From a virus, in the IMG/VR virus record IMGVR_UViG_3300036398_002892, positions 1 through 64,000 of that record: a stretch of DNA of 64,000 nt; one strand, written 5' to 3'. The translations under genes and the position numbers were made by a program. Shown piece by piece: positions 5,061 to 64,000 of the stretch; the stretch's first letter is position 1, and each line of letters opens with the position of its first letter. Below the pieces are notes generated by a model. It was not told the DNA's origin and ran no database searches. It saw only the letters and a list, made by a program, of their open reading frames with translations.

Positions 5061-8000
5061 ATGGCATCAAATCAAAAAGTATTCGTATCTCCCGGAGTAT
5101 ATACTTCTGAAGTTGATTTAAGTTTCGTAGCACAAAGTGTGGGAGTTACCACGTTGGGTATTGTGGGTGAGACCTTAAAAGGTCCTGCTTTCGAACCTAT
5201 TTTTATACGAAATTTTGATGAATTCACAAATTTCTTCGGTGGAACTTCTCCAGAAAAATTTATAAATACACAAATTCCAAAGTACGAAGCGGCTTATATT
5301 GCTAAATCATACTTACAACAATCTAACCAATTATTCGTAACGAGAGTTTTAGGATTATCCGGTTATGATGCAGGACCATCTTGGTCTATAACAACAAAAG
5401 CGAATGTTAACCCGACAACGGTTGATTTCTTTTGTGAAAGTGCTACAACTGAGAATTGTATAACTGAGTGTATTGACTTTAAAACAATTAATTATTCTAT
5501 TGAATTCTCGGCGTGTACTAACAGTATTGATAGTATAGTGTTTACAAACACATCTAATTTAGCACCTGAGATTTCTTCAATATTAAACGAACCTTACGAA
5601 CAATTCGATGGTAGTATAAGTACGTTGTATACTGATTTCTCTAGACAAATTTTTGACGTAGTTTCAACACCGGCAAAAGAGGATACTTCAATTTATTACT
5701 ACGGAGCAATACCAACAAGTGTTTATTCAGGATTAAGTGAGGTGTATACAGGTGAAACAAATGTTTACGAAGTTGATAATGTAAGTGCTAATTTATGTAA
5801 TTACTCAGCACCACAAAATGACCCTTGGTATTACTCATTATTTGATAATGTTGGTAATGCCGCTTACACAGGATTTTCATTTTGGTCAGTTGTGACAGGA
5901 TTAACATTGACACCTATTATTACAACTACAACGTCTACGTCAACAACAACTACTACAACTGACCCATGTACAACTACAACATCAACATCAACCACTTCAA
6001 CAACAACGGCTAGACCTACACATTGTTATACAGGTACATTGATAGGTGTTATTTATGTCTATTCGGGAACCGCATATACTGATTATGATGATTTAGTAAT
6101 TGCTACATTACGTTCAAGAGGTCTTTCAACATATGGTTTAGATGATGGTCCGGTTTATGAAGTATCAGGTTTAACTGATGTTAGTTTAGATTGTACAGGA
6201 ACATATTCAGGTGTAACTAAAAACCCATTTTCAACTTTTGGTGTTAACATCACAAGTAAAGATGGTGACCAATATTTCTTTGAAACATCCTTCTCAAACT
6301 CTGACCCTAAATATATAAGTAAAGTATTTGGAGCGTCTAACTTCTCTAAACCAAGAACAGTAGTTCCATTATTTGTTGAAGAAAGATTCCAAGCTTTATT
6401 AACAAATGCTTGGAGAATGGGTTATATTAGAGGTTTAAATTGTGAATTAACCGCTTTACCTGACGCACGTCAAGCAATTGACCCAACATCAATAGCATTT
6501 TATTTAGAGAAATATCAATCTCCGGTATCACCTTGGGTTGTTTCTGAATTAAGAGGTAATAAAGTTTATAACTTATTTAAATTTACAACTATTGCTGATG
6601 GTGATTCTGCTAACGTTGATATTAAAATATCGTTAGCTAATATGTCATTTAACAACGGTACTTTTGATGTATTGATTAGAGATTTCTTTGATACTGATTC
6701 TGCTCCGGTGGTTCTTGAAAAATATACTAACTGTACAATGAACCCTCAAGATAATTCATTCGTAGGTAAGAAAATTGGTAGTTTAGATGGTGAATATCCA
6801 TTATTATCAAGTTATGTTATGGTTGAGATGAATGAGGATGCTCCGATAGACGCACTTCCTTGTGGATTCTTGGGTTATGATTATAGAGAATATGCTGGTG
6901 TTAGACCACCATTCCCATTAATTAAAGCTAAATACTATTATCCTGGTGAGGTAGTTTATAATCCACCATTTGGTTTAGCATCAGGTGCGGACGATACTAC
7001 TACAAGTGCGGGTGATAATGTAAGAAGAACTTATTTAGGTATCTCTGATACTGAAGGTATTGATGTTGACTTCTTCCAATATAAAGGTAATCAACTTCCT
7101 TTAGATATATGTAACGATACTGAAGGTAATCCTTGGAACTTTAGAACTAGAGGATTCCACATGGATGAAAATGCAACAGGTATTACAATACCTAATGTAT
7201 TTGTAACTAGTGGTACACCGGCGTTCTTCTGTGGTGACGCACCATTTACATCAGACCCTGATAACCCTGAAAATCCTTACTATAGAATTTTTGCACGTAA
7301 ATTTACTTTACTTGTTAAAGGAGGTTTTGATGGATGGGATATCTACAGAGAATTTAGAACAAATACTGATAGATTTGTATTAGGTAGAGCAGGTTATTTA
7401 AGAGGAGCTTGTCCAACACCAAGATACCCTACCGCAACAGGTTGGGGGGCATTCAAACAAATTAGTGTAGCGGGTAATACTCAAGATTTTGCGAACACCG
7501 ATTATTACGCTTATTTATTAGGTCAAGAAACATTTGCAAATCCTGAAGCAGTAAACATTAACGTGTTTGTTACACCGGGTATTGATTATGTTAATAACTC
7601 TAATTTAGTTGAAAACGCAATCGATATGATTGAATTTAGTAGAGCAGATTCATTGTACGTTTGTACAACACCTGACTACAATATGTATGTTCCTTCAACA
7701 GGTAATCAATTTGACTTTATTTACCCACAAGAGGCTGTAGATAATTTAGCAAATTCAGGTATTGATTCTAACTACACGGCGACTTACTACCCTTGGGTAT
7801 TAATGAGAGATACAGTTAACAATACACAAATTTACTTACCAGCAACTGCTGAGGTAACGAGAAACTTAGCGTTAACAGACAACATCGCTTATCCTTGGTT
7901 CGCAGCTGCGGGTTACACGAGAGGTATTGTAAATGCTGTTAAAGCGAGAATTAAACTGACTCAAGAAAATAGAGATACTCTATATCAAGGTCGTTTAAAT

Positions 8001-8387
8001 CCAATTGCTACCTTCTCTGATGTTGGAACAGTTATTTGGGGTAACAAAACTCTTCAAATTAGACAATCGGCACTTGATAGAATCAACGTAAGAAGATTAT
8101 TACTTCAAGCTCGTAAATTAATATCTGCTGTTTCTGTTAGATTATTATTCGAACAAAACGATGCTAAAGTAAGACAAGATTTCTTGGATTCTGTTAACCC
8201 AATATTAGATTCGATTAGAAGAGATAGAGGTCTTTACGATTTCCGTGTAACTGTTTCGTCTGACGCAGCTGATATAGACAGAAATCAAATGACAGGTAAG
8301 ATTTACATCAAACCAACCAAATCGTTAGAATTTATAGACATTACGTTCTATATCACTCCAACAGGTGCATCTTTCGAGAATATATAA
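5061..8387 (+). CDS. Tail sheath protein (gp18-like) with inserted domain
   Basis: Major contractile sheath subunit. The N-terminus (VFVSPGVYTSEVDLSF) and the C-terminal part (VTVSSDAADIDRNQMTG ... FIDITFYITPTG) have the family hallmarks of the conserved handshake and core domains that hold the sheath lattice. At 1108 residues it is far longer than T4 gp18 (about 660). The extra length is largely in the surface-exposed middle, including an almost pure Thr/Ser linker at about residues 288-318 with a Cys in the middle, followed by a Cys-containing segment of about 70 residues. It is the first gene of the tail operon, downstream of the TATTTAT element and the two palindromes; a strong hairpin follows it. 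The sheath identity is firm; the role of the insertion is unknown. Confidence 0.95.
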   Translation: MASNQKVFVSPGVYTSEVDLSFVAQSVGVTTLGIVGETLKGPAFEPIFIRNFDEFTNFFGGTSPEKFINTQIPKYEAAYIAKSYLQQSNQLFVTRVLGLSGYDAGPSWSITTKANVNPTTVDFFCESATTENCITECIDFKTINYSIEFSACTNSIDSIVFTNTSNLAPEISSILNEPYEQFDGSISTLYTDFSRQIFDVVSTPAKEDTSIYYYGAIPTSVYSGLSEVYTGETNVYEVDNVSANLCNYSAPQNDPWYYSLFDNVGNAAYTGFSFWSVVTGLTLTPIITTTTSTSTTTTTTDPCTTTTSTSTTSTTTARPTHCYTGTLIGVIYVYSGTAYTDYDDLVIATLRSRGLSTYGLDDGPVYEVSGLTDVSLDCTGTYSGVTKNPFSTFGVNITSKDGDQYFFETSFSNSDPKYISKVFGASNFSKPRTVVPLFVEERFQALLTNAWRMGYIRGLNCELTALPDARQAIDPTSIAFYLEKYQSPVSPWVVSELRGNKVYNLFKFTTIADGDSANVDIKISLANMSFNNGTFDVLIRDFFDTDSAPVVLEKYTNCTMNPQDNSFVGKKIGSLDGEYPLLSSYVMVEMNEDAPIDALPCGFLGYDYREYAGVRPPFPLIKAKYYYPGEVVYNPPFGLASGADDTTTSAGDNVRRTYLGISDTEGIDVDFFQYKGNQLPLDICNDTEGNPWNFRTRGFHMDENATGITIPNVFVTSGTPAFFCGDAPFTSDPDNPENPYYRIFARKFTLLVKGGFDGWDIYREFRTNTDRFVLGRAGYLRGACPTPRYPTATGWGAFKQISVAGNTQDFANTDYYAYLLGQETFANPEAVNINVFVTPGIDYVNNSNLVENAIDMIEFSRADSLYVCTTPDYNMYVPSTGNQFDFIYPQEAVDNLANSGIDSNYTATYYPWVLMRDTVNNTQIYLPATAEVTRNLALTDNIAYPWFAAAGYTRGIVNAVKARIKLTQENRDTLYQGRLNPIATFSDVGTVIWGNKTLQIRQSALDRINVRRLLLQARKLISAVSVRLLFEQNDAKVRQDFLDSVNPILDSIRRDRGLYDFRVTVSSDAADIDRNQMTGKIYIKPTKSLEFIDITFYITPTGASFENI

Positions 8388-9437: not shown

Positions 9438-9926
9438 ATGGCTGATTTATTAATGAAAATGCCCATACCTTACGAACCTAAAAGACAAAATAGGTTTATA
9501 TTACGTTTTCCTTCAACATTAGGGATTAATGAATGGTTCGTAGAATCGGCAGCAAGACCAAAAATAACAATTAATCCTGTTGCGATTCCATTTTTAAACA
9601 CTGAAACATATGTTGCCGGTCGTTTTACTTGGGGTACAATAAATGTTAAATTCCGTGACCCAATTGGACCTTCTGCGTCTCAGGCACTTATGGAATGGGT
9701 ACGTTTATGTGCAGAATCAGTTACCGGACGTATGGGGTATGCTGCGGGTTATAAAAAGAATGTTGACCTTGAGATGTTAGACCCAACGGGTGTAGTTGTT
9801 GAGAAATGGATATTAGAAGGAACTTTCTTATCTGATGTTAACTTTGATTCGTTGGCGTATAGTACAGACGCTTTAGCGACAATATCAGCGGTATTACGTA
9901 TGGATAGATGTATATTAGTTTACTAA
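9438..9926 (+). CDS. Tail tube protein (gp19-like)
   Basis: 162 residues, the normal size for a T4-type tube subunit (T4 gp19 is 163). The pattern is the tail-tube beta-barrel fold: N-terminal PYEPKRQNRFILRFP, a central hairpin region ending in WGTINVKFRDP, a helix (SASQALMEWVRLCAES), and a C-terminal strand pair around LEGTFLSDVNFDSLAYS. Hexameric rings would stack inside the sheath to form the channel for DNA. It follows sheath and precedes the chaperone and tape measure, the T4 order. Flanked by its own candidate promoter and an intrinsic terminator. Confidence 0.92.
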   Translation: MADLLMKMPIPYEPKRQNRFILRFPSTLGINEWFVESAARPKITINPVAIPFLNTETYVAGRFTWGTINVKFRDPIGPSASQALMEWVRLCAESVTGRMGYAAGYKKNVDLEMLDPTGVVVEKWILEGTFLSDVNFDSLAYSTDALATISAVLRMDRCILVY

Positions 9927-10039: not shown

Positions 10040-10795
10040 ATGGACGAAAGTTTAATTAATGCAGCAACAGAAAATTTCACATTACCACATGACGTGGTAT
10101 CATTACCGAGTGGTGGAATTTTTTATAAATCTAAGAAAAAATCGGTTAAAGTAGGTTATTTAACGGCATCTGATGAAAATTATTTGATTGGTGCAATGGC
10201 TGGTAAAGAAAATATTGTATTTACTTTATTAAGAAATAAATTATATGAACATGATTTACGTCCTGAAGAATTAATGGATGGTGATGTTGAAGCAATTTTA
10301 ATCTTTTTAAGAAATACTTCTTTTGGTCCGGAATATACAATTAATTTAATTGACCCAAGTACTAGTAAAACTTTTTCACACACTGTTGTCTTGGATGAAT
10401 TAAATATTAAACAATGTAAACATCAACCTGATGAAAATGGTTTTTTTACTACAACATTACCTAAAACAGGTGTAACAATTAAATTAAGACCTACCACTTT
10501 TCATGACACTATTGAGTTGGATAAAATGGTTGAACAATATCCCGTGGGAAGACAAGCGCCAAGAATAACTTGGAAATTACAAAAACAAATTGTTGAGATT
10601 GATGGTGATAACGATAGAGGTAAAATAGCGATGTTTGTTGATACTTTACCTATTATGGACTCTAAATACATAAGAACTTTTTTAAGAGAAAATGAACCGT
10701 CATTAGACCTTAAAAGAACTGCAACCGCCCCATCAGGAGAATTGGTATCTTACGAGATAACCTTTGGGGTTGAGTTTTTTCGGCCTTTCTTTTAA
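10040..10795 (+). CDS. gp26-like baseplate hub assembly protein / tail assembly chaperone
   Basis: 251 residues resembling the T4 gp26 baseplate-assembly family. It opens with LPHDVVSLPSGGIFY, followed by a helix-rich segment with LRPEELMDGDVEAILIFLRN, a beta region, and a C-terminus ending EVSYEITF-type strands then FFRPFF. It lies directly before the tape measure, where tail assembly chaperones are normally found. The last 35 nt overlap an open +1 frame that continues into the ORF at 10830, and two shift-prone sites occur there, so a longer frameshifted product of about 298 residues is likely in addition to this one. The C-terminal FFxPFF right at the shift region supports this. Confidence 0.75.
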   Translation: MDESLINAATENFTLPHDVVSLPSGGIFYKSKKKSVKVGYLTASDENYLIGAMAGKENIVFTLLRNKLYEHDLRPEELMDGDVEAILIFLRNTSFGPEYTINLIDPSTSKTFSHTVVLDELNIKQCKHQPDENGFFTTTLPKTGVTIKLRPTTFHDTIELDKMVEQYPVGRQAPRITWKLQKQIVEIDGDNDRGKIAMFVDTLPIMDSKYIRTFLRENEPSLDLKRTATAPSGELVSYEITFGVEFFRPFF

Positions 10796-10796
10796 C
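10775..10796 (+). other. Candidate +1 programmed frameshift site
   Basis: In the gp26-like frame the codons are TTT TTT CGG CCT TTC TTT TAA C. Two +1 slips are plausible: a Phe-tRNA moving from TTT to TTC with the rare CGG codon waiting (10778-10783), or from TTT to TTT with the stop TAA in the A site (10790-10796), an arrangement like the release factor 2 shift site CTT TGA C. Either one leads into the frame of the 10830 ORF, which is open from 10761 to 10937. Confidence 0.5.
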
Positions 10797-10829
10797 TATC
10801 GACAACTACTAATTGAGGAATATTATTTG

Positions 10830-10937
10830 ATGGCTAAATTTATAAGAACATCATATAGTGACTTCAACGAGATGCCTACTTATGTTAGGAAATTTTTAAT
10901 AAACAGAATTCTAGAAGATAATACACCAAAGACCTAA
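10830..10937 (+). CDS. Small ORF, probable frameshift extension of the gp26-like chaperone (gp51-like part)
   Basis: Read from its own ATG it encodes 35 residues starting MAKFIRTSYSDF. The frame is open upstream to 10761, in +1 phase relative to the gp26-like gene, giving the upstream residues NYRQLLIEEYYL. The combined sequence (an Ile-Glu-Glu-Tyr helix, then SDFNEMPTYVRKFLINRI) has the look of the C-terminal part of frameshifted tail assembly chaperones, in which an aromatic residue, a Met-Pro pair and an Arg-containing helix recur. Independent translation is possible because GAGGAA lies 9 nt before the ATG, one of the few Shine-Dalgarno-like sequences in the window. Its stop lies in the left arm of a terminator hairpin. 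Confidence 0.6.
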   Translation: MAKFIRTSYSDFNEMPTYVRKFLINRILEDNTPKT

Positions 10938-10982: not shown

Positions 10983-12863
10983 ATGCAAGATGCAAGTAGT
11001 TTAGACGCTAGTGGTCAAAAAGGTAAAGATATTCTTGATTCGTTCGGTAAAGCTTTATTAAGTAATTTTCAAACCGAAGCAGTTGGTAAAGTCGTTGCCG
11101 AACTTGATAAAGGGGCTAGTACCCTTTTAAAACAATTTGGTGTTGGTCAAGAAATGGCTCAAACATTAAGAGCCACTATGGCTGATGCGGTTACTGGTGT
11201 TAGAACTTTAGGTGGGGATATTGATGCGGTTATTAAAACACAAATGGAGGCTTCAAAAGCTTTACAACGAAACGTAATATTATCTGCGGAAGTAAATAAA
11301 GACCTTTATGCAACAGTGAAAGTAACAGGTCAAGAAGTTGGTACGTTAGTATCAGGATTTAAAGATGTTGGAATTGGTGCGGGACGAGTTGCGGGTGAAA
11401 TGAAAAAAGTTGTTGATATTGCTACTCAGTCAGGTGTAAACGCCGCAGATGTTTCGGCAAAAGTTTTACAAAATATGGATGCCCTAAACAAATATAATTT
11501 TGAAGGAGGAGTATCCGGTTTGGCTAAAATGGCTGCTCAAGCGAGTTTATTAAGAATTGATATGAGTCAAACATTGGCGTTTGCGGAAAAAGTATTTGAC
11601 CCGGAAGGGGCTATTGAAATGGCTGCGGCAATGCAAAGATTAGGTGTTTCTCAAAGTAGTTTACTTGACCCACTTAAAATGATGGATTTAGCTCAAAATG
11701 ACCCGGCTGAATTACAAAACCAAATTGCTCAAATGAGTAAACAATTTGTTCAATTAGGTAAAGACGGTAATTTTGAAATTATGCCGGGGGCGAAACGTCA
11801 AATGAGAGAAATATCCAAAGCGATGGGTATACCTTATGAACAATTGACTAAAATGGCGTTAGGTAGTGCTGAATTAGAGGATAAAATGAGTAAAATTCGT
11901 TTTCCTGATTTACCGGGCTTAGATGAAGATAAGCAAAAAATGATAGCCAATATGGCTGAAATGGGTGCTGGAGGTAAATATGAAGTTCAAGTCAAAGATG
12001 AACAAACAGGTGAAACTATTACCAAAGCCCTTGACCAATTAAATGAAAAAGATGTTGCAAATCTTGAAAAAATGGCTAATACCGCTCCAAAAACAATGGA
12101 GGAATTAGCTGTTAGTCAATTAAGTGTTACAGAAAAAATGGCTGCGGATATTAAATCATTGGCAGACCAAACAGGTTTAGGGGCTGCAAGAACTAAAGCG
12201 ATGGGTACTGGTATAAATTTTCTTAGAGATACTTCAACCGCAGTTAGAAAAACACTTTCACCAAAAGAGATGAGTACAAAAAATCTTGCGTCATCAATTG
12301 ACTCAGGTATAGATAAAAATTTAGATGTTCTTAAAAGATTAACAGATGGTGAGATAAGTGCTGGTGAGGCAAGAAAAGAAGTTGGGGAAAATTTAAAAAA
12401 ATTAGGGTCATTACTTAATTCTGCTTATGAAACCGGAATGAAAAACGCCCAAATCGAATCTGAAAAAATAAAAAATGATTACCCTGTGATTGACCAACTT
12501 AAAAAACTTTTATCGGGTGATATAAGTAAGATAGAAAGTAATAAGAAACAGGAAACAAATATTACTCAAACAGAAATTAGTAATGTTAGAAATGCCTCAA
12601 CAATTCCTACTAATACATCACAAACAGCAACTAATCCATCTACTGATAGACCAATTGAAATAACATTAAATCACAATATAGATTTAAAAACAACAGGTAA
12701 TGTTGACACTAACCAAATAGTAATGGCTCTTAAAAATACTGACGTTCAACAAGGTATGGTCGGAGCGTTAAAAGAGGCGATGTATAGTAATGGTTTAATG
12801 GCTCCAACCGCAAACAAAACACAATTAATGAATAGTAATATTAGTGCGAGTTCATTAGCATAA
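10983..12863 (+). CDS. Tape measure-like protein (gp29 position)
   Basis: 626 residues, almost entirely predicted helix and rich in Ala, Lys, Met and Gln. The middle part, with repeated amphipathic helices such as GAIEMAAAMQRLGVSQ and AQMSKQFVQLGKDG, is typical of phage tape measure proteins, which set tail length inside the tube. The C-terminal ~110 residues are Thr/Asn/Ser-rich and probably extended. Position after a tail assembly chaperone and before hub proteins supports the call. It begins with its own ATG after a terminator and TATTTAT element. Length is comparable to T4 gp29 (590). No peptidase or lysozyme motif is seen. Confidence 0.75.
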   Translation: MQDASSLDASGQKGKDILDSFGKALLSNFQTEAVGKVVAELDKGASTLLKQFGVGQEMAQTLRATMADAVTGVRTLGGDIDAVIKTQMEASKALQRNVILSAEVNKDLYATVKVTGQEVGTLVSGFKDVGIGAGRVAGEMKKVVDIATQSGVNAADVSAKVLQNMDALNKYNFEGGVSGLAKMAAQASLLRIDMSQTLAFAEKVFDPEGAIEMAAAMQRLGVSQSSLLDPLKMMDLAQNDPAELQNQIAQMSKQFVQLGKDGNFEIMPGAKRQMREISKAMGIPYEQLTKMALGSAELEDKMSKIRFPDLPGLDEDKQKMIANMAEMGAGGKYEVQVKDEQTGETITKALDQLNEKDVANLEKMANTAPKTMEELAVSQLSVTEKMAADIKSLADQTGLGAARTKAMGTGINFLRDTSTAVRKTLSPKEMSTKNLASSIDSGIDKNLDVLKRLTDGEISAGEARKEVGENLKKLGSLLNSAYETGMKNAQIESEKIKNDYPVIDQLKKLLSGDISKIESNKKQETNITQTEISNVRNASTIPTNTSQTATNPSTDRPIEITLNHNIDLKTTGNVDTNQIVMALKNTDVQQGMVGALKEAMYSNGLMAPTANKTQLMNSNISASSLA

Positions 12864-59104: not shown

Positions 59105-62100
59105 TTACGTTCCGTAAACTATTTCAATACCTTCAATGTGTATAGTCCATCTTAAAGTTTCTCCAACAACACCGGTTACCTGTATGTCTAAAGCGTCATT
59201 AGTATCGTCAGCGGTAATTGCAACGTCATAAGATGAGTTAGTTTCTACATCAGTACCAATAGTTGATACAGTACCGATTAAAGAAGTTACTCCACCTACA
59301 TTCTTAATCGCAACTTTTCTTATATAGTGAGCTCCTCCTGAACCATCTGATTTAATACCACCAATATTTACTGTAACAAACATTGCAGTTCCTGCAATTA
59401 CGGATATAAGTTGAGTTGTTCCATCTAAAAATATATTAACTGGTGTCGCATTTGTTGTTTTATTTCTACCAACTAAGTCAATTTGTTGTGATGTTCCTTT
59501 TATTAAACCATTAAAACTACCTGAAGAAAAAGACCTTTGACCGAAACGAGGTGCACATGATAATGTTCCACCAAGAATTGATGAATAACAACCTGTGGTA
59601 GTGTTGCCACAACCTCCACCAATAAATGAATGGGTACCACATGAAATATTTGATATACCACCAACAATTGCCGAACAACCACTAAACACGACATTTCCAT
59701 TACCACCACCAACAAAAGAACCTGATGAACAAACCCCATTTACGTTTCCACCAACAATTACAGATAGGGTTGTACTTGATAATGCGGGTGTTGCAATACA
59801 GTTTGATTGACCACCACCAATAAAGTTAGAATCACCATGAGTTCTATTTGACATACCGCTAACAATTGCTGAGTATCCATATACCCATTGGCATGTAATA
59901 CAGTTTCCATTACCCCCACCTATAAATGAAAAACTTAAACGAGTTGTATTATTATTACCCCCACCAATAAATGAAGAGTTTCCTATAGTAATATTACAAT
60001 AACCACCACCAATTGTTGAACATCCCCCACTTGAATTATTCTTTTGACCACCACCAATTGTTGAAGTATCTCCTGATGAGATATTATTATATCCACCACT
60101 GATTGTTGAAGTGGCTCCTGATAAACGGTTTTTAGCTCCACCTCCAATTGTTGATATTCTACCACATATCACATTACTATAACCACCACTAATTGTTGTG
60201 AAATAACATGATGATGATGTATTATCACAACCACCGGCAATTACCGAACAATTTCCACAAGCGCGATTTTTATATCCACCACCAATTGTTGAGGTAGCAC
60301 CGGATGAGACATTACATCTACCACCAACAACAGTTGACCAACTACCTGAAGATAAATTACAAACCCCACCACCAATTGTTGAACACGCCCCTGATGCGAT
60401 GTTTCTATAACCTCCACTTATTGTTGATAATTTACCCGCATTAAATGTACAAGTTGGACTAGTCGTTACAGCTCCTGTTGTAAAGTTAAATGTTCCTCCA
60501 CTAGTATTATTAAAAATACCACCACCGATAGTTGTACCTAAAGAACAACATTCGTTATTTGGTGATTGTATTCTATTATTAAGACCACCACCAATTGTTG
60601 AAAATCTTGCATTTATTATGTTAATACAACCACCACCAATTGTTGAAGTATAACCTGAAGAATTATTATTACTACCACCACCAACAGTTCCAAGTATTCC
60701 GTAGACACGATTGTCAATACCACCCCCAATTGTTCCACCATCACCAAAAATTCTTTGTGATTGACCACCACTAATCGTTGCTCCTAAACAATACACAACA
60801 TTTAATGCACCTCCTCCAATGGTTGAAGTATTTCCGCTGATTACATTATCAATTCCACCCCCAATGAATGAATCACTACCCGATACACTATTAGACCTAC
60901 CACCACCAATTATTGAACATAAACCTGATGCGGTATTCTTACAGCCACCACCAACAAATGAACAATTTCCTGATGCGGTATTACAAAAACCACCTAAAAT
61001 TGATGACCTTAAACCTGATGCGGTATTACATTGACCACCACTTACTGTTGAATAATTACATGATGATATATTTTTAAAACCACCACCAATTGTTGAACAA
61101 ACCCCTATGGCTTGATTACAAATTCCTCCGGCAATTGTTGAAGTAGTTCCTGTTGCGATATTATTACATCCTCCCCCAATTGTTGAACTATTACCCACAA
61201 CAAAATTTTTACAACCACCACCAATAAATGAATGGGTACTTGTTATAGTATTTTGACTACCACCAACAATACTTGAAGTGGCTCCTGATACTGTATTACC
61301 AATACCTCCACCAATAAATCCTTGACAAAATCCACCTGAACTTGTTGTAAAATTTCGTAAAAATGGTTGTGAGGAAGAAAAAGGACTCACAGAGACAGTT
61401 GCACCACTAACATACAAGTTTGTATATGGTGAGGAATATGTTTGTCCTGTAATAACTACGTTTCTACTACATCCGAAGTTATCATATGTTAATAAAAGGT
61501 CGTTTACGCTAAATGATGATAATTGATTCCCGAACAATTGTAATGTACAAGTATTTGCGGAATATGAACTTATTAGTTGAGAATTGCCTATAAAGTTTAA
61601 TGTTCCACCTCCAATTATAGAATGTCTTGCGTAACTTACGTTAACGCTTCCACCCCCAATAACACCAAATTCTAACACAACTTTATTATTATTACCACTT
61701 ACAATACCACCACCATAAGAACATTGAGCCAAACAGTTACCACATCCTCCTAAAATTGCTGCTCTAACTCCATATGTTTTATTAGCTGTTCCACCGGCTA
61801 TAACACCATCTTCACCAACACCTGTTGTTCCTGATATTAAGTTACCTCTACCTCCACCAATAAATCCGAATTCGTTACATATTTTATTATTTGTTCCACC
61901 TGCGATTACTGAATTTGATGGGTTCATTGTATTACTAGTTATACAATTGTAAAAACCACCACCTATTGTAGAATATGTTCCACAAACGAGATTAAGTCTA
62001 CCACCGGCAATTGTTGAGTTATTACAACATGTTGTATTACAACAACCACCACCAACAAATGAAAAACATCCTGATGATGTATTTCCTAATCCACCACCAA

Positions 62101-64000
62101 TAAATGAACAAGCACCACATGCACAATTTGATATACCACCACCAATCGTTGAATGACTTCCACATGATATATTAGACTCACCACCACCAATTGTTGAGTA
62201 ATTACAATATGTTCTATTATACGAACCTCCGGCTATTGTTGAACAATTACCGTAAGTGCAATTGTGATTACCGCCACCAATAAATGAATTATAACCTGAC
62301 GATAAATTATTAGTACCATTACCAATAAATGAGTATTGACCACTAGCGACATTATAACTTCCCGCCCCAATAAATGACGAATAATTACTTGATGTATTAC
62401 TTGAACCACCACCTATAAAAGATTTAATACCGCTAGCAGTATTTTGTTGACCTCCAACAACACTTGACGCATTTCCACTTGCGGTGTTTAATACTCCCGC
62501 TCCAATAAACGAGCCGTATGAACCACTTGCGTTATTACAATAACCCCCACCGATAAATGACCAATTTCCTGTTGATGTATTTTTACAACCACCACCAATA
62601 AATGAATGTGTTCCTCCACTAACTATATTTTGTCGTCCACCAACCACAACTGAAAAATCTGTTGTTGCAGAGTTTGATAAACCACCTAATACTGCACTAC
62701 AATTTCCTGATGCAAGATTACTAACACCACATCTAACAGATGAGTTAACGCCTGTTCCTGTAATGATTACGGCTGATGAACCACCTCCACCACCGGCAAT
62801 AGGTACTAAAAGTCCATTTGTACTAACTCCAACATAACAACCACTACAAGTACTCATAGAAGTAATAATCATGTCGTTAACAAATGTCGTACAATCTCTA
62901 TTTGATGTTATATTTGAACCAATAATGAAAGATTCATTATTTGAAACCGTATTATTCACACCTCCGGCTATAAAACTTCCAACACCAATGGCGTTATTTG
63001 TTCCACCACCAACTATTGATGAAAGAACACCACTTGCGGTATTTGAACCAAACGAATTCCCACCACCACCTACAAATGAACGATATCCTGATGCGGTATT
63101 ACCGCAACCTCCACCAACAAAAGAACCATCACACGACGCGGTATTCTTACTACCACCACCAATTGTTGAGGTAGTACCTGATGCTATATTACAAAAACCA
63201 CCACCTATTGTTGAATCATTACCTGATGATATGTTAATACGTCCACCACCAATGAATGAACAAGTTCCTGATATTGAATTACATTGACCACCGGCAATTG
63301 TTGATTTATCACCACAAACGGTATTTGATTGACCACCTCCAATAGTTGAACTATCACAATAAGCTTTATTACCACCACCTCCGGCAATTGTTGAGTTGTT
63401 GGATAAGGCTTGATTACAATAACCACCACCAACGGTTGCGTCACCATTATTTGGATATGGTCCGGTAACACAAGCTATATTATATCCACCACCTGCAATA
63501 GTATTTCTTGGTCCGACAACAAGATTACAACAACCACCACCTATTGTTGATGTATTTCCTGATATTCTATTTAAATGACCACCACCAATAAATGAATGAG
63601 TTCCTCCGCTAATAACGTTTTGACAACCTCCACCAATTGTTGCTCCGGATGTTGTTAATATGTTACAAAATCCACCACTTATAGTTGAATCATTATTTGA
63701 TACCGTATTACAACGACCACCTCCAATTATTGAGCAACAACCCGATACGACATTACAATAACCACCACCAATTGATGAAATAAATCCTGAAACCTCATTT
63801 CTACATCCACCACCAATAATTGAGGCATTCCCTGACGCAGTATTTCTAGTACCACCACCAACAGTTGAAGCGAAACTTCCTGATATATTACAACGACCAC
63901 CACTTATTGTTGAATAACAACCTGCGTTATTATTTTTATAACCACCACCAATTAATGAATGTGTTCCACCACTAACTATATTTTGTCGTCCACCAACAAC
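59105..64000 (-). CDS. Giant beta-roll repeat fibre protein, C-terminal part (runs off right edge)
   Basis: I followed the frame codon by codon from 62942 to 64000 and found no stop, so the gene is open at the right edge with 1631 residues visible; the GTG at 62959 is an internal Val (GGVNNTV) and not a start. Nearly all of it is a 15-residue repeat of the form [ST]-[FT]-[IV]-G-G-G-x-x-N-x-x-[SC]-G-x-x, of the YadA-head/left-handed beta-roll type that forms trimeric stalks. One non-repeat island lies near 61340-61600. The last ~155 residues are a beta-sandwich cap (LIKGTSQQIDLVGRNKTT and TAMFVTVNIGGIKSDG). Unusually many Cys occupy fixed repeat positions. Probably a long tail fibre; its N-terminal attachment domain is outside the window. 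Confidence 0.8.
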   Translation of the reverse strand, partial: VVGGRQNIVSGGTHSLIGGGYKNNNAGCYSTISGGRCNISGSFASTVGGGTRNTASGNASIIGGGCRNEVSGFISSIGGGYCNVVSGCCSIIGGGRCNTVSNNDSTISGGFCNILTTSGATIGGGCQNVISGGTHSFIGGGHLNRISGNTSTIGGGCCNLVVGPRNTIAGGGYNIACVTGPYPNNGDATVGGGYCNQALSNNSTIAGGGGNKAYCDSSTIGGGQSNTVCGDKSTIAGGQCNSISGTCSFIGGGRINISSGNDSTIGGGFCNIASGTTSTIGGGSKNTASCDGSFVGGGCGNTASGYRSFVGGGGNSFGSNTASGVLSSIVGGGTNNAIGVGSFIAGGVNNTVSNNESFIIGSNITSNRDCTTFVNDMIITSMSTCSGCYVGVSTNGLLVPIAGGGGGSSAVIITGTGVNSSVRCGVSNLASGNCSAVLGGLSNSATTDFSVVVGGRQNIVSGGTHSFIGGGCKNTSTGNWSFIGGGYCNNASGSYGSFIGAGVLNTASGNASSVVGGQQNTASGIKSFIGGGSSNTSSNYSSFIGAGSYNVASGQYSFIGNGTNNLSSGYNSFIGGGNHNCTYGNCSTIAGGSYNRTYCNYSTIGGGESNISCGSHSTIGGGISNCACGACSFIGGGLGNTSSGCFSFVGGGCCNTTCCNNSTIAGGRLNLVCGTYSTIGGGFYNCITSNTMNPSNSVIAGGTNNKICNEFGFIGGGRGNLISGTTGVGEDGVIAGGTANKTYGVRAAILGGCGNCLAQCSYGGGIVSGNNNKVVLEFGVIGGGSVNVSYARHSIIGGGTLNFIGNSQLISSYSANTCTLQLFGNQLSSFSVNDLLLTYDNFGCSRNVVITGQTYSSPYTNLYVSGATVSVSPFSSSQPFLRNFTTSSGGFCQGFIGGGIGNTVSGATSSIVGGSQNTITSTHSFIGGGCKNFVVGNSSTIGGGCNNIATGTTSTIAGGICNQAIGVCSTIGGGFKNISSCNYSTVSGGQCNTASGLRSSILGGFCNTASGNCSFVGGGCKNTASGLCSIIGGGRSNSVSGSDSFIGGGIDNVISGNTSTIGGGALNVVYCLGATISGGQSQRIFGDGGTIGGGIDNRVYGILGTVGGGSNNNSSGYTSTIGGGCINIINARFSTIGGGLNNRIQSPNNECCSLGTTIGGGIFNNTSGGTFNFTTGAVTTSPTCTFNAGKLSTISGGYRNIASGACSTIGGGVCNLSSGSWSTVVGGRCNVSSGATSTIGGGYKNRACGNCSVIAGGCDNTSSSCYFTTISGGYSNVICGRISTIGGGAKNRLSGATSTISGGYNNISSGDTSTIGGGQKNNSSGGCSTIGGGYCNITIGNSSFIGGGNNNTTRLSFSFIGGGNGNCITCQWVYGYSAIVSGMSNRTHGDSNFIGGGQSNCIATPALSSTTLSVIVGGNVNGVCSSGSFVGGGNGNVVFSGCSAIVGGISNISCGTHSFIGGGCGNTTTGCYSSILGGTLSCAPRFGQRSFSSGSFNGLIKGTSQQIDLVGRNKTTNATPVNIFLDGTTQLISVIAGTAMFVTVNIGGIKSDGSGGAHYIRKVAIKNVGGVTSLIGTVSTIGTDVETNSSYDVAITADDTNDALDIQVTGVVGETLRWTIHIEGIEIVYGT
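59600..64000 (-). repeat. 45-bp tandem coding repeats
   Basis: On the plus strand the pattern CCACCACCAATTGTTGA or CCACCACCAATAAATGA recurs about every 45 bp, encoding SxIGGG on the minus strand. By length there are of the order of 90 units. Many are near-identical at DNA level, and 62588-62647 matches 63941-64000 at 57 of 60 positions, showing both local and long-distance duplication. Confidence 0.85.

Follow-up and report, generated by a model that had tools for sequence, protein, structure and literature searches.

Probable Forward Frameshifting in Tail Assembly Chaperone Genes

Tail assembly chaperones of the lambda gpG/gpGT type are reportedly the subject of a 2004 study by Xu, Hendrix and Duda. 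Frameshifted tail chaperones are a classic of phage biology; the shifts are mostly -1, T4 is the named exception, and one review describes G-T frameshifting as widely conserved except in T4 (PMC5009743). In the review's account of lambda, a short and a frameshifted long form are made from overlapping frames just before the tape measure gene, and the shift adds a small C-terminal domain (PMC5009743). The locus described here would be alike in these respects; however, lambda shifts by -1, whereas the shift proposed here is +1 and would take place at a single UUU codon. Backward shifts are also predicted for the chaperones of SPP1, at UUUUUUC (PMC6316719), and of phage Adele, and poly-T -1 signals are described for T4-like chaperone genes (PMC12846349). 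Closer in direction is the chaperone of the myovirus HSTV-2, whose shift the review calls very likely +1, and we compare it by that description (PMC5009743).

Forward shifts in phage morphogenesis genes are also described for the capsid and tail proteins of Listeria phage PSA, where the codon that slips in +1 is one for proline and is followed by a pseudoknot or a stop, and for SPP1 gp17.1*, with a +1 slip at CCC_UAA (PMC5009743, PMC6316719). As these sources present them, both shifts extend structural proteins, unlike the one proposed here. In influenza A, a +1 site, UCC_UUU_CGU, has been proven for PA-X (Firth 2012, PMC3498833). Its authors predicted a class of UUU_C sites that prefer CGN in the A site (PMC3498833); the class has been shown so far for PA-X and predicted for other eukaryotic viruses. 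The present locus resembles PA-X as described there in a P-site UUU that would re-pair to UUC, in an A-site CGN and in the +1 direction; it differs in belonging to a bacterial virus, in the gene concerned and in the E-site codon, which is UUU and not UCC. Moreover, most of its relatives carry UUU_UGG or UUU_UAC instead of UUU_CGN.

The literature searched, mostly outside subscription journals, held no account of a +1 shift in chaperones of the PF12322 family. A 2022 paper by Vladimirov, Gautam and Davidson (Virology 566:9-15) is said, going by its title, to deal with T4-like chaperones and a mechanism other than frameshifting, and it may already describe part of the arrangements reported here. 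Relatives of these T4 proteins seem to shift by +1, in most cases at UUU_Y or CUU_U, and the novel part is an apparent switch in the direction of the shift within one chaperone family.

The Locus

The window, i.e., the whole stretch of 64,000 nucleotides that was analysed, is part of a 95,646-base viral record. The gene order is tail sheath, a 273-aa ORF, tail tube, the gp26-like gene, its +1 extension and a 626-aa ORF, and the features concerned are as follows.

5061..8387, + strand: tail sheath protein (PF17482, E 1.6e-9; phrog_23, E 6.4e-55)
9438..9926, + strand: tail tube protein, upstream neighbour (phrog_4542 tail tube, E 3.1e-25)
10040..10795, + strand: predicted short form (TAC-N) of a gp26-like tail assembly chaperone, 251 aa, 0 frame (ORF, PF12322, phrog_150, AlphaFold model)
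10742..10774, + strand: codons -11 to -1 before the slip, with family-wide synonymous constraint (third-position G/C; z 5 to 14 at several codons)
10761..10937, + strand: whole open stretch of the +1 frame (read from the sequence)
10774, + strand: base before the U-run, G (T in 0/79 +1 clusters and in 16/16 heptamer-bearing -1 genes)
10775..10783, + strand: predicted +1 slip site TTT_TTT_CGG (codon and column conservation; re-pairing proposed)
10782..10937, + strand: C-terminal domain in the +1 frame (GLSFNYRQ...NTPKT), 51 aa, which would give the 298-aa long form (TAC-NC) (dN/dS, HMM)
10793..10795, + strand: 0-frame stop TAA ending the short form, four codons after TTT TTT (identity varies among relatives)
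10983..12863, + strand: presumed tape measure gene, 626 aa (position only)

The gp26-like ORF (10040-10795, plus strand) encodes 251 aa and stops at TAA 10793-10795. The +1 frame is open from 10761 to 10937, between a preceding TAA at 10758-10760 and a following TAA at 10935-10937, and includes a 35-codon ORF with its ATG at 10830. An earlier, sequence-only reading of this DNA had proposed that a +1 shift fuses the gp26-like chaperone to the small downstream frame; on re-reading, all of its coordinates (gene end at 10795, open frame 10761-10937) were correct, and its estimate of about 298 residues for the fused product agrees with the 298 aa that conceptual translation gives when one base is skipped at CGGC. 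Two candidate slip sites are present, TTT_TTT_CGG (10775-10783) and TTT_TAA_C (10790-10796). The 95,646-base record has a single copy of the motif TTTTTTCGNCCT, with none on the other strand and none in the reversed control.

The gene lies between the tail tube gene and the presumed tape measure gene, which is the position of a tail assembly chaperone. Its location directly before the tape measure gene, as first proposed, is supported, with the tape measure presumed from position: the 626-aa ORF (10983-12863) gave no convincing family match in Pfam/PHROG-type profile searches, and a tape measure is annotated at the corresponding place in Listeria phage LIS04 (annotation order: tube, hub, tape measure) and Flavobacterium phage immuto. 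Since a tail sheath gene is present, the phage should have a contractile tail. No tRNA genes were found within the window.

A long open +1 frame is not remarkable by itself. At least 47 codons of open +1 frame past the stop are seen in 9 of the 38 window genes of at least 100 aa, and the anatomy therefore needed comparison with relatives. The other eight such genes run into the next gene, which starts -16 to +68 bases away; the gp26-like gene does not.

Family and Fold of the Predicted Chaperone

The gp26-like protein matches PF12322 (T4_baseplate; T4 gp26/gp51) with E 6.2e-8 and 33 bits against a cut-off of 24.5, and phrog_150 with E 9.1e-12. For an AlphaFold model of the short form (mean pLDDT 85.6), the first PDB match in Foldseek is the HK97 tail assembly chaperone 2OB9 (probability 0.87, E 0.22); the modelled N-domain is thus nearest to the HK97 chaperone, though the scores are modest. 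The VIA Z values are 5.9 for 2OB9, 5.7 for YqbN (3KLU) and at most 4.4 for the others, and a Z of 5.9, being below 8, lies in the range where a common arrangement can arise. A PDB sequence search with the family profile gave no match at E up to 1. Taken alone, the modelled fold match is suggestive of a tail assembly chaperone; once the gene's position, its family and the predicted pair of forms are added, the locus is best read as coding for a chaperone of the gpG/gpGT kind. As predicted from its sequence, the locus most likely encodes this chaperone in forms of 251 and 298 residues.

Very probably, the locus makes two forms of one PF12322-type protein, the long one by a +1 slip at TTT_TTT_CGG. 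Most ribosomes would follow the 0 frame to the TAA at 10795 and make the 251-residue TAC-N. A fraction would move forward by one base at TTT_TTT_CGG while the P site holds UUU (10778-10780) and the A site the rare codon CGG. The tRNA-Phe (anticodon GAA) would re-pair from UUU at 10778-10780 to UUC at 10779-10781, GGC (10782-10784) would be the next codon, and translation in the +1 frame would continue to 10937, yielding the 298-residue TAC-NC with the conserved C-terminal domain. If the two behave like lambda gpG and gpGT (PMC5009743), TAC-N may cover the tape measure protein and the rarer TAC-NC may recruit tail tube subunits, and both would leave before the tail is completed.

Conservation of the +1 Frame

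Relatives were gathered with several queries: 80 loci through the window protein (the best 80 of 410, at 70-100% identity), 20 fetched through the LR756508 homologue, 80 through the immuto homologue (the best 80 of at least 599), 80 through an alignment query (the best 80 of at least 588) and one through an SP-15 query, which is SP-15 itself. Six loci from prokaryote genome contigs and six phage records were included as well. With the window's own record the total is 274 loci; five are incomplete, which leaves 269 with a readable junction. Left out before counting were L107, L108, L131 and L204, where the gene end was not found on the contig, L201, whose contig ends 52 bases past the stop, and the T4 and gp51 loci (L088, L190-L199).

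In 265 of the 269 readable loci the +1 frame is open across the 0-frame stop and bears the C-terminal domain. These relatives are not independent, and at 75% identity the 265 loci form 79 clusters. The sequence-only reading had said that stops between the two frames in relatives would count against the fusion of chaperone and downstream frame; this check favours the fusion in 265 of the 269. The -1 frame is open for more than 60 bases past the stop in just 56 of the 265. That the arrangement goes beyond chance rests on this conservation of an open, domain-bearing +1 frame, together with the purifying selection described below.

A domain HMM built from 73 of the extensions matches 265/265 at E 1e-3 or better. 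When the three Firmicutes-phage genes or the window-type genes are withheld from training, the resulting HMMs recover them (E 6e-4 to 2e-8); in particular, the window extension is found at E 4.5e-7 by the HMM trained without window-type genes. The earlier impression that the extension is a C-terminal domain of the tail-chaperone type is supported. More than 200 environmental contigs have the +1 arrangement, as do phages infecting Flavobacterium, Microcystis, Bacillus, Streptococcus and Listeria, and Microcystis phage Mel-JY01 provides one further case outside the 265. Among the annotated records that were examined, the predicted long chaperone appears either in pieces or not at all.

Position and Codons of the Predicted Slip

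With the shift put directly behind F-[F/L], all 113 unique untruncated fused products among the first 182 loci have their last 0-frame residue in a single column of the alignment. The second +1 residue is Leu in 75/79 clusters, and the first three are GL[ST] in 31/79. By cluster, the slip codons are TTT_TTT_TGG_CCT (48), TTT_TTT_TAC_CCT (12), TTT_CTT_TGG_CCT (6), TTT_TTT_CGN_CCT (4) and nine singles; CCT is nearly invariant because its third base is the second base of the +1 Leu codon. Window-type genes have TTT_TTT_CGN_CCT in 36/36 unique genes, with CGN in 81/81 loci, and their TTT_TTT_CGN column is the slip column of the other relatives (113/113).

The second codon and the next base read UUU_Y or CUU_U in 76 of the 79 clusters. 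The exceptions, CUA_U in two clusters and UUU_A in one (Listeria LIS04), are poor re-pairings, and there the first codon, UUU, could slip instead; types with TTC_TTT_TGG permit a slip at the second codon only. A pyrimidine follows the second codon in 264/265 loci vs 17/81 control dicodons, and in most relatives it is partly set by the 0-frame Trp or Tyr. The window-type Arg codon is free to vary synonymously, yet it is always CGN, although window genes use AGA/AGG for 474 of 595 Arg codons and CGG for 5, and this fits re-pairing of tRNA-Phe from UUU to UUY. Judged from the aligned genes, the constrained base before the run and the following pyrimidine both fit such re-pairing. The pattern of the UUU_C(GN) class of +1 sites, a UUU with C next to it and CGN as the A-site codon, is present in 36/36 unique window-type genes. 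A -1 heptamer of the form X_XXY_YYZ is not formed in the window, where G precedes TTT_TTT, and the window's -1 frame closes six codons past the 0-frame stop. UGG and UAC, which stand at this place in most relatives, are not known to be slow; hence, a slow A site fails to explain most of the family.

The sequence-only reading had regarded both TTT-TTT-CGG and TTT-TAA-C as sensible +1 sites and had likened the latter to the site of release factor 2. A slip at the stop codon in that fashion would give the product ...FRPFFNYR; TTT_TAA_C is indeed there in the window, and the PRFect paper ranks UUU ahead of a stop with the codons that slip most readily in +1 at the site of release factor 2. However, the slippery codon is not conserved at the stop: in unique window-type genes the codon before it is TTT in 17/36 and TTC, which does not re-pair in +1, in 19/36, and the identity of the stop codon varies as well, both in these genes and among relatives at large. 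In other relatives the codons before the stop are unrelated, whereas the upstream F-[F/L] junction is shared, and a slip at the stop gives no reason for the fixed upstream CGN and CCT. A slip at the stop is consequently quite improbable. The suggested check in relatives therefore divides the two sites: the +1 overlap and TTT_TTT_CGN are conserved (36/36 genes, one column in 113/113), and TTT_TAA is not. To the extent that sequence can show it, the +1 frameshift is real, and its site is TTT_TTT_CGG instead of the stop. The string TTYTTTTAAC occurs twice in the window, against 3.0 expected by chance.

Selection on the Extension

For 32 unique window-type genes, dN/dS was estimated in all three frames over 40 codons that follow the 0-frame stop: the +1 frame gives 0.156, the remaining two give 1.4 and 0.73. 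Between the stop and the ATG at 10830 (11 codons) it is 0.151, and in the gp26 body it is 0.186. These estimates indicate that the extension is under purifying selection, including the part that precedes the ATG.

This bears on the possibility that the downstream piece is a separate small gene translated from ATG 10830, or is reached by re-initiation after the stop. An ATG does lie within the first 25 extension codons of 25 of the 35 untruncated unique window-type genes (10 have no ATG there, and 2 have no start codon at all), some named phages are annotated with a separate hypothetical protein, and two relatives on environmental contigs, L100 and L104, have the domain as an ORF of its own, with the ATG 2 and 5 bases past the stop codon and no open frame back to the Phe-Phe. 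However, selection before the ATG is as strong as that on the whole extension (0.151 vs 0.156), and the junction is fixed at one column. Moreover, among 113 untruncated unique genes, the first 25 extension codons contain no ATG in 74 and none of ATG, GTG or TTG in 50. In the two relatives with a separate ORF, the slip codons are changed, to TTC_TTG_TAT_CCT and TTC_CTT_TGG_CCA. Given the constraint ahead of the ATG and the missing starts in relatives, a separately started peptide does not explain the data, and a separate gene or re-initiation is very unlikely. For the 35-residue peptide that the sequence-only reading had set against a fusion, an independent start is likewise unlikely, because the residues from stop to ATG are as constrained as the rest. 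L100 and L104 stand together, nested inside the +1 part of the tree (100/100), and they appear to be a natural loss of the +1 frameshift, which counts in its favour.

Signals near the Predicted Slip

No T stands before the U-run in any of the 79 +1 clusters, where pooled codon usage predicts 34; the corresponding log10 probability of -23 is computed as if the clusters were independent, which they are not. As a control, 81 in-frame TTT_YTT dicodons from other places in these loci were considered, and 36 of them have T before the run. Among all 265 +1 loci, five have a T there (L093-L097, with GGT_TTC_TTT_TGG; none is among the 79 representatives), and they form no -1 heptamer because their first codon is TTC. 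That the frame changes through slippage of RNA polymerase on the T-run, and not of the ribosome, has a very small chance of being right: a seven-T run is present in 61/79 clusters, but it is only six T long in this phage and throughout the 36 unique window-type genes, TTT_CTT_TGG (35/182 loci) and TTT_CTA interrupt it, and the constraint on the base before it fits avoidance of a -1 heptamer.

Upstream of the slip, strong synonymous constraint towards G is seen at family level at codons -11 to -7 and -3. GGAGG is present in this region in 40/79 clusters, vs 0 to 2 of 79 in four overlapping control stretches, and stands at -31 in 27/79. At about 26 bases off, GGAGG is much further upstream than the signal of release factor 2 is from its slip site.

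Folding free energies around the site are only slightly low (mean z -0.3 to -0.9). Alifold gave no structure for the 57 TGG-type clusters; upstream helices were obtained, judged by energies alone, at -5.0 vs -0.3 after column shuffling for the 14 TAC-type sequences and at -10.6 vs -5.5 for the 32 window-type sequences. In a codon-permutation test, z was -7.6 for positions -33 to 0, and relatedness inflates this value, since control stretches further upstream are low as well (-4.1 and -2.1). A candidate AUCCC/GGGAU hairpin was rejected, having failed covariation at its third-position pair (34/79 vs 31.5 expected). No stimulatory RNA structure was established by free energy, Alifold, permutation or the covariation of this one hairpin, and the upstream synonymous constraint could not be tied to any structure in these tests.

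Homologues with a Probable Backward Shift

From the 63 and 61 records returned by two homologue searches, 15 jumbo-phage records were taken: Paride, MIJ3, RAS14, Phosso, XaC1, Atu_ph07, CBB, Munch, GAP32, Vibrio 2.275, Hallingskeid, SCTP-2, XacN1, 121Q and RaK2. Paride and MIJ3 are near-identical, so that these are not 15 independent cases. Their N-domain is homologous by tblastn, and they carry the same kind of C-terminal domain at the same Phe-Phe position; unlike the window, they have it in the -1 frame behind the usual -1 heptamer NNT_TTT_TTY, in which the base before the run is T. In all 15 the -1 frame is open for 71-82 codons. The HMM of the +1 extension scores best in the -1 frame in 15/15 jumbo genes (E 5e-7 to 1.5), although the best reversed control reached E 1.8 and the weakest of these matches are not significant alone.

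The same arrangement is seen in LR756511 (L087), with GGT_TTT_TTC, an open -1 frame and the domain in -1; these features rule out the alternative that its domain is a separate overlapping gene. With this gene included, T precedes the U-run in 16/16 heptamer-bearing -1 genes. In the tree, the 14 jumbo genes represented form one clade (100/100), and L087 is placed outside it, on a long branch that makes the placement unsure; with L087, the -1 state needs two changes. The aligned genes indicate that base and direction are tied to each other by about two events, plus the upkeep of this tie within each group. In a deltaproteobacterial MAG (L285), the domain is in -1 (HMM E 3.9e-4) with no T before TTC_TTC and no heptamer that can be named, which counts against a simple rule relating base to direction.

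We propose tentatively, and with slightly more doubt than belief, that direction is switched at a fixed Phe-Phe. A T before the U-run (NNT_TTT_TTY) would allow a two-tRNA slip backwards, with the domain in -1; another base before the run and a pyrimidine after it (NNV_TTT_YTT_Y) would favour a one-tRNA slip forwards, with the domain in +1. Phages would have crossed between the two states, and to separate genes, while keeping a chaperone of two isoforms, and the upstream element (codons -11 to -7, where one cluster in three has GGAGG some 31 bases ahead of the slip) would tune the process. Relatives with +1, -1 and separate-gene arrangements form a natural series on what sets the direction of slippage, and as the same gene in other phages appears to slip the opposite way, the choice of direction is testable.

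The Two Genes of T4

The series also suggests how the two-gene layout of T4 could have arisen from a frameshifted ancestor, or the reverse. T4 genes 26 and 51 are separate and in opposite orientation, and both products match PF12322 (E 8.8e-64 for gp26 and 3.9e-52 for gp51) as well as phrog_150. The window gene is of the same family, but T4 has two genes where the window has one locus with a proposed +1 shift. T4 gp26 (208 aa) lacks an extension and gp51 (249 aa) reaches the end of phrog_150; by these alignments, the two look like equivalents of the short and the long form. Searching with the HMM of the extension by itself gives no significant match to gp51. When the families are compared with hhalign, the C-terminus of gp51 and the extension align collinearly, with weak similarity (E 3.6e-5, probability 71%).

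Signals around the slip site

Among representatives of the 79 clusters into which the +1 loci were grouped at 75% identity, codons -11 to -7, counted back from the slip site, show a strong synonymous preference for G, and GGAGG lies approximately 31 bases 5' of the slip in 27 of the 79. An overlapping reading frame was considered as the cause of the preference; it does not explain it, because each other frame is interrupted by a stop within these codons in 49 of the 79 representatives.

On the 3' side, inspection by eye shows GC-rich hairpins in some relatives, beginning 12 bases from where the first slip codon starts; by eye, the window type (the gene form of the window and its closest relatives) has none there. 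In L228 and L243, two homologous loci from relatives, such hairpins appear by eye as compact stems just 3' of the slip site (GGGGCC..GGCCCC; GCGGGC..GCCCGC).

A relative with the domain in the -1 frame

The contig L285, from a deltaproteobacterial MAG, holds a homologous gene whose C-terminal domain is encoded in -1.

The phenylalanine codons of L285 read TTC_TTC with no T in front, even though the domain lies in the -1 frame, and a search of this gene for a slip site identified none.

Annotation of the extension

In the annotated phage records examined (loci L082, L084-L086, and L287-L302), the extension is either listed as a separate hypothetical protein or left unannotated.

Neighboring genes and base composition

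5061-8387, +: tail sheath protein, 1108 aa
8444-9265, +: 273-aa ORF between the tail sheath and tail tube genes

Significant sheath-family matches (Pfam, PHROGs) are confined to the sheath protein from approximately residue 818 onward, and its long N-terminal part holds two adjacent Thr/Ser-rich stretches. The 273-aa ORF gave only sub-cut-off matches in Pfam and no match in PHROGs; close to its N-terminal start it carries YYAFDWDDNIV, a motif reminiscent of HAD-type phosphatases.

Base composition shifts at 60001-64000 (GC 0.374, GC skew -0.314) relative to the stretch before 52000, where GC is 0.29-0.33 and GC skew is positive.
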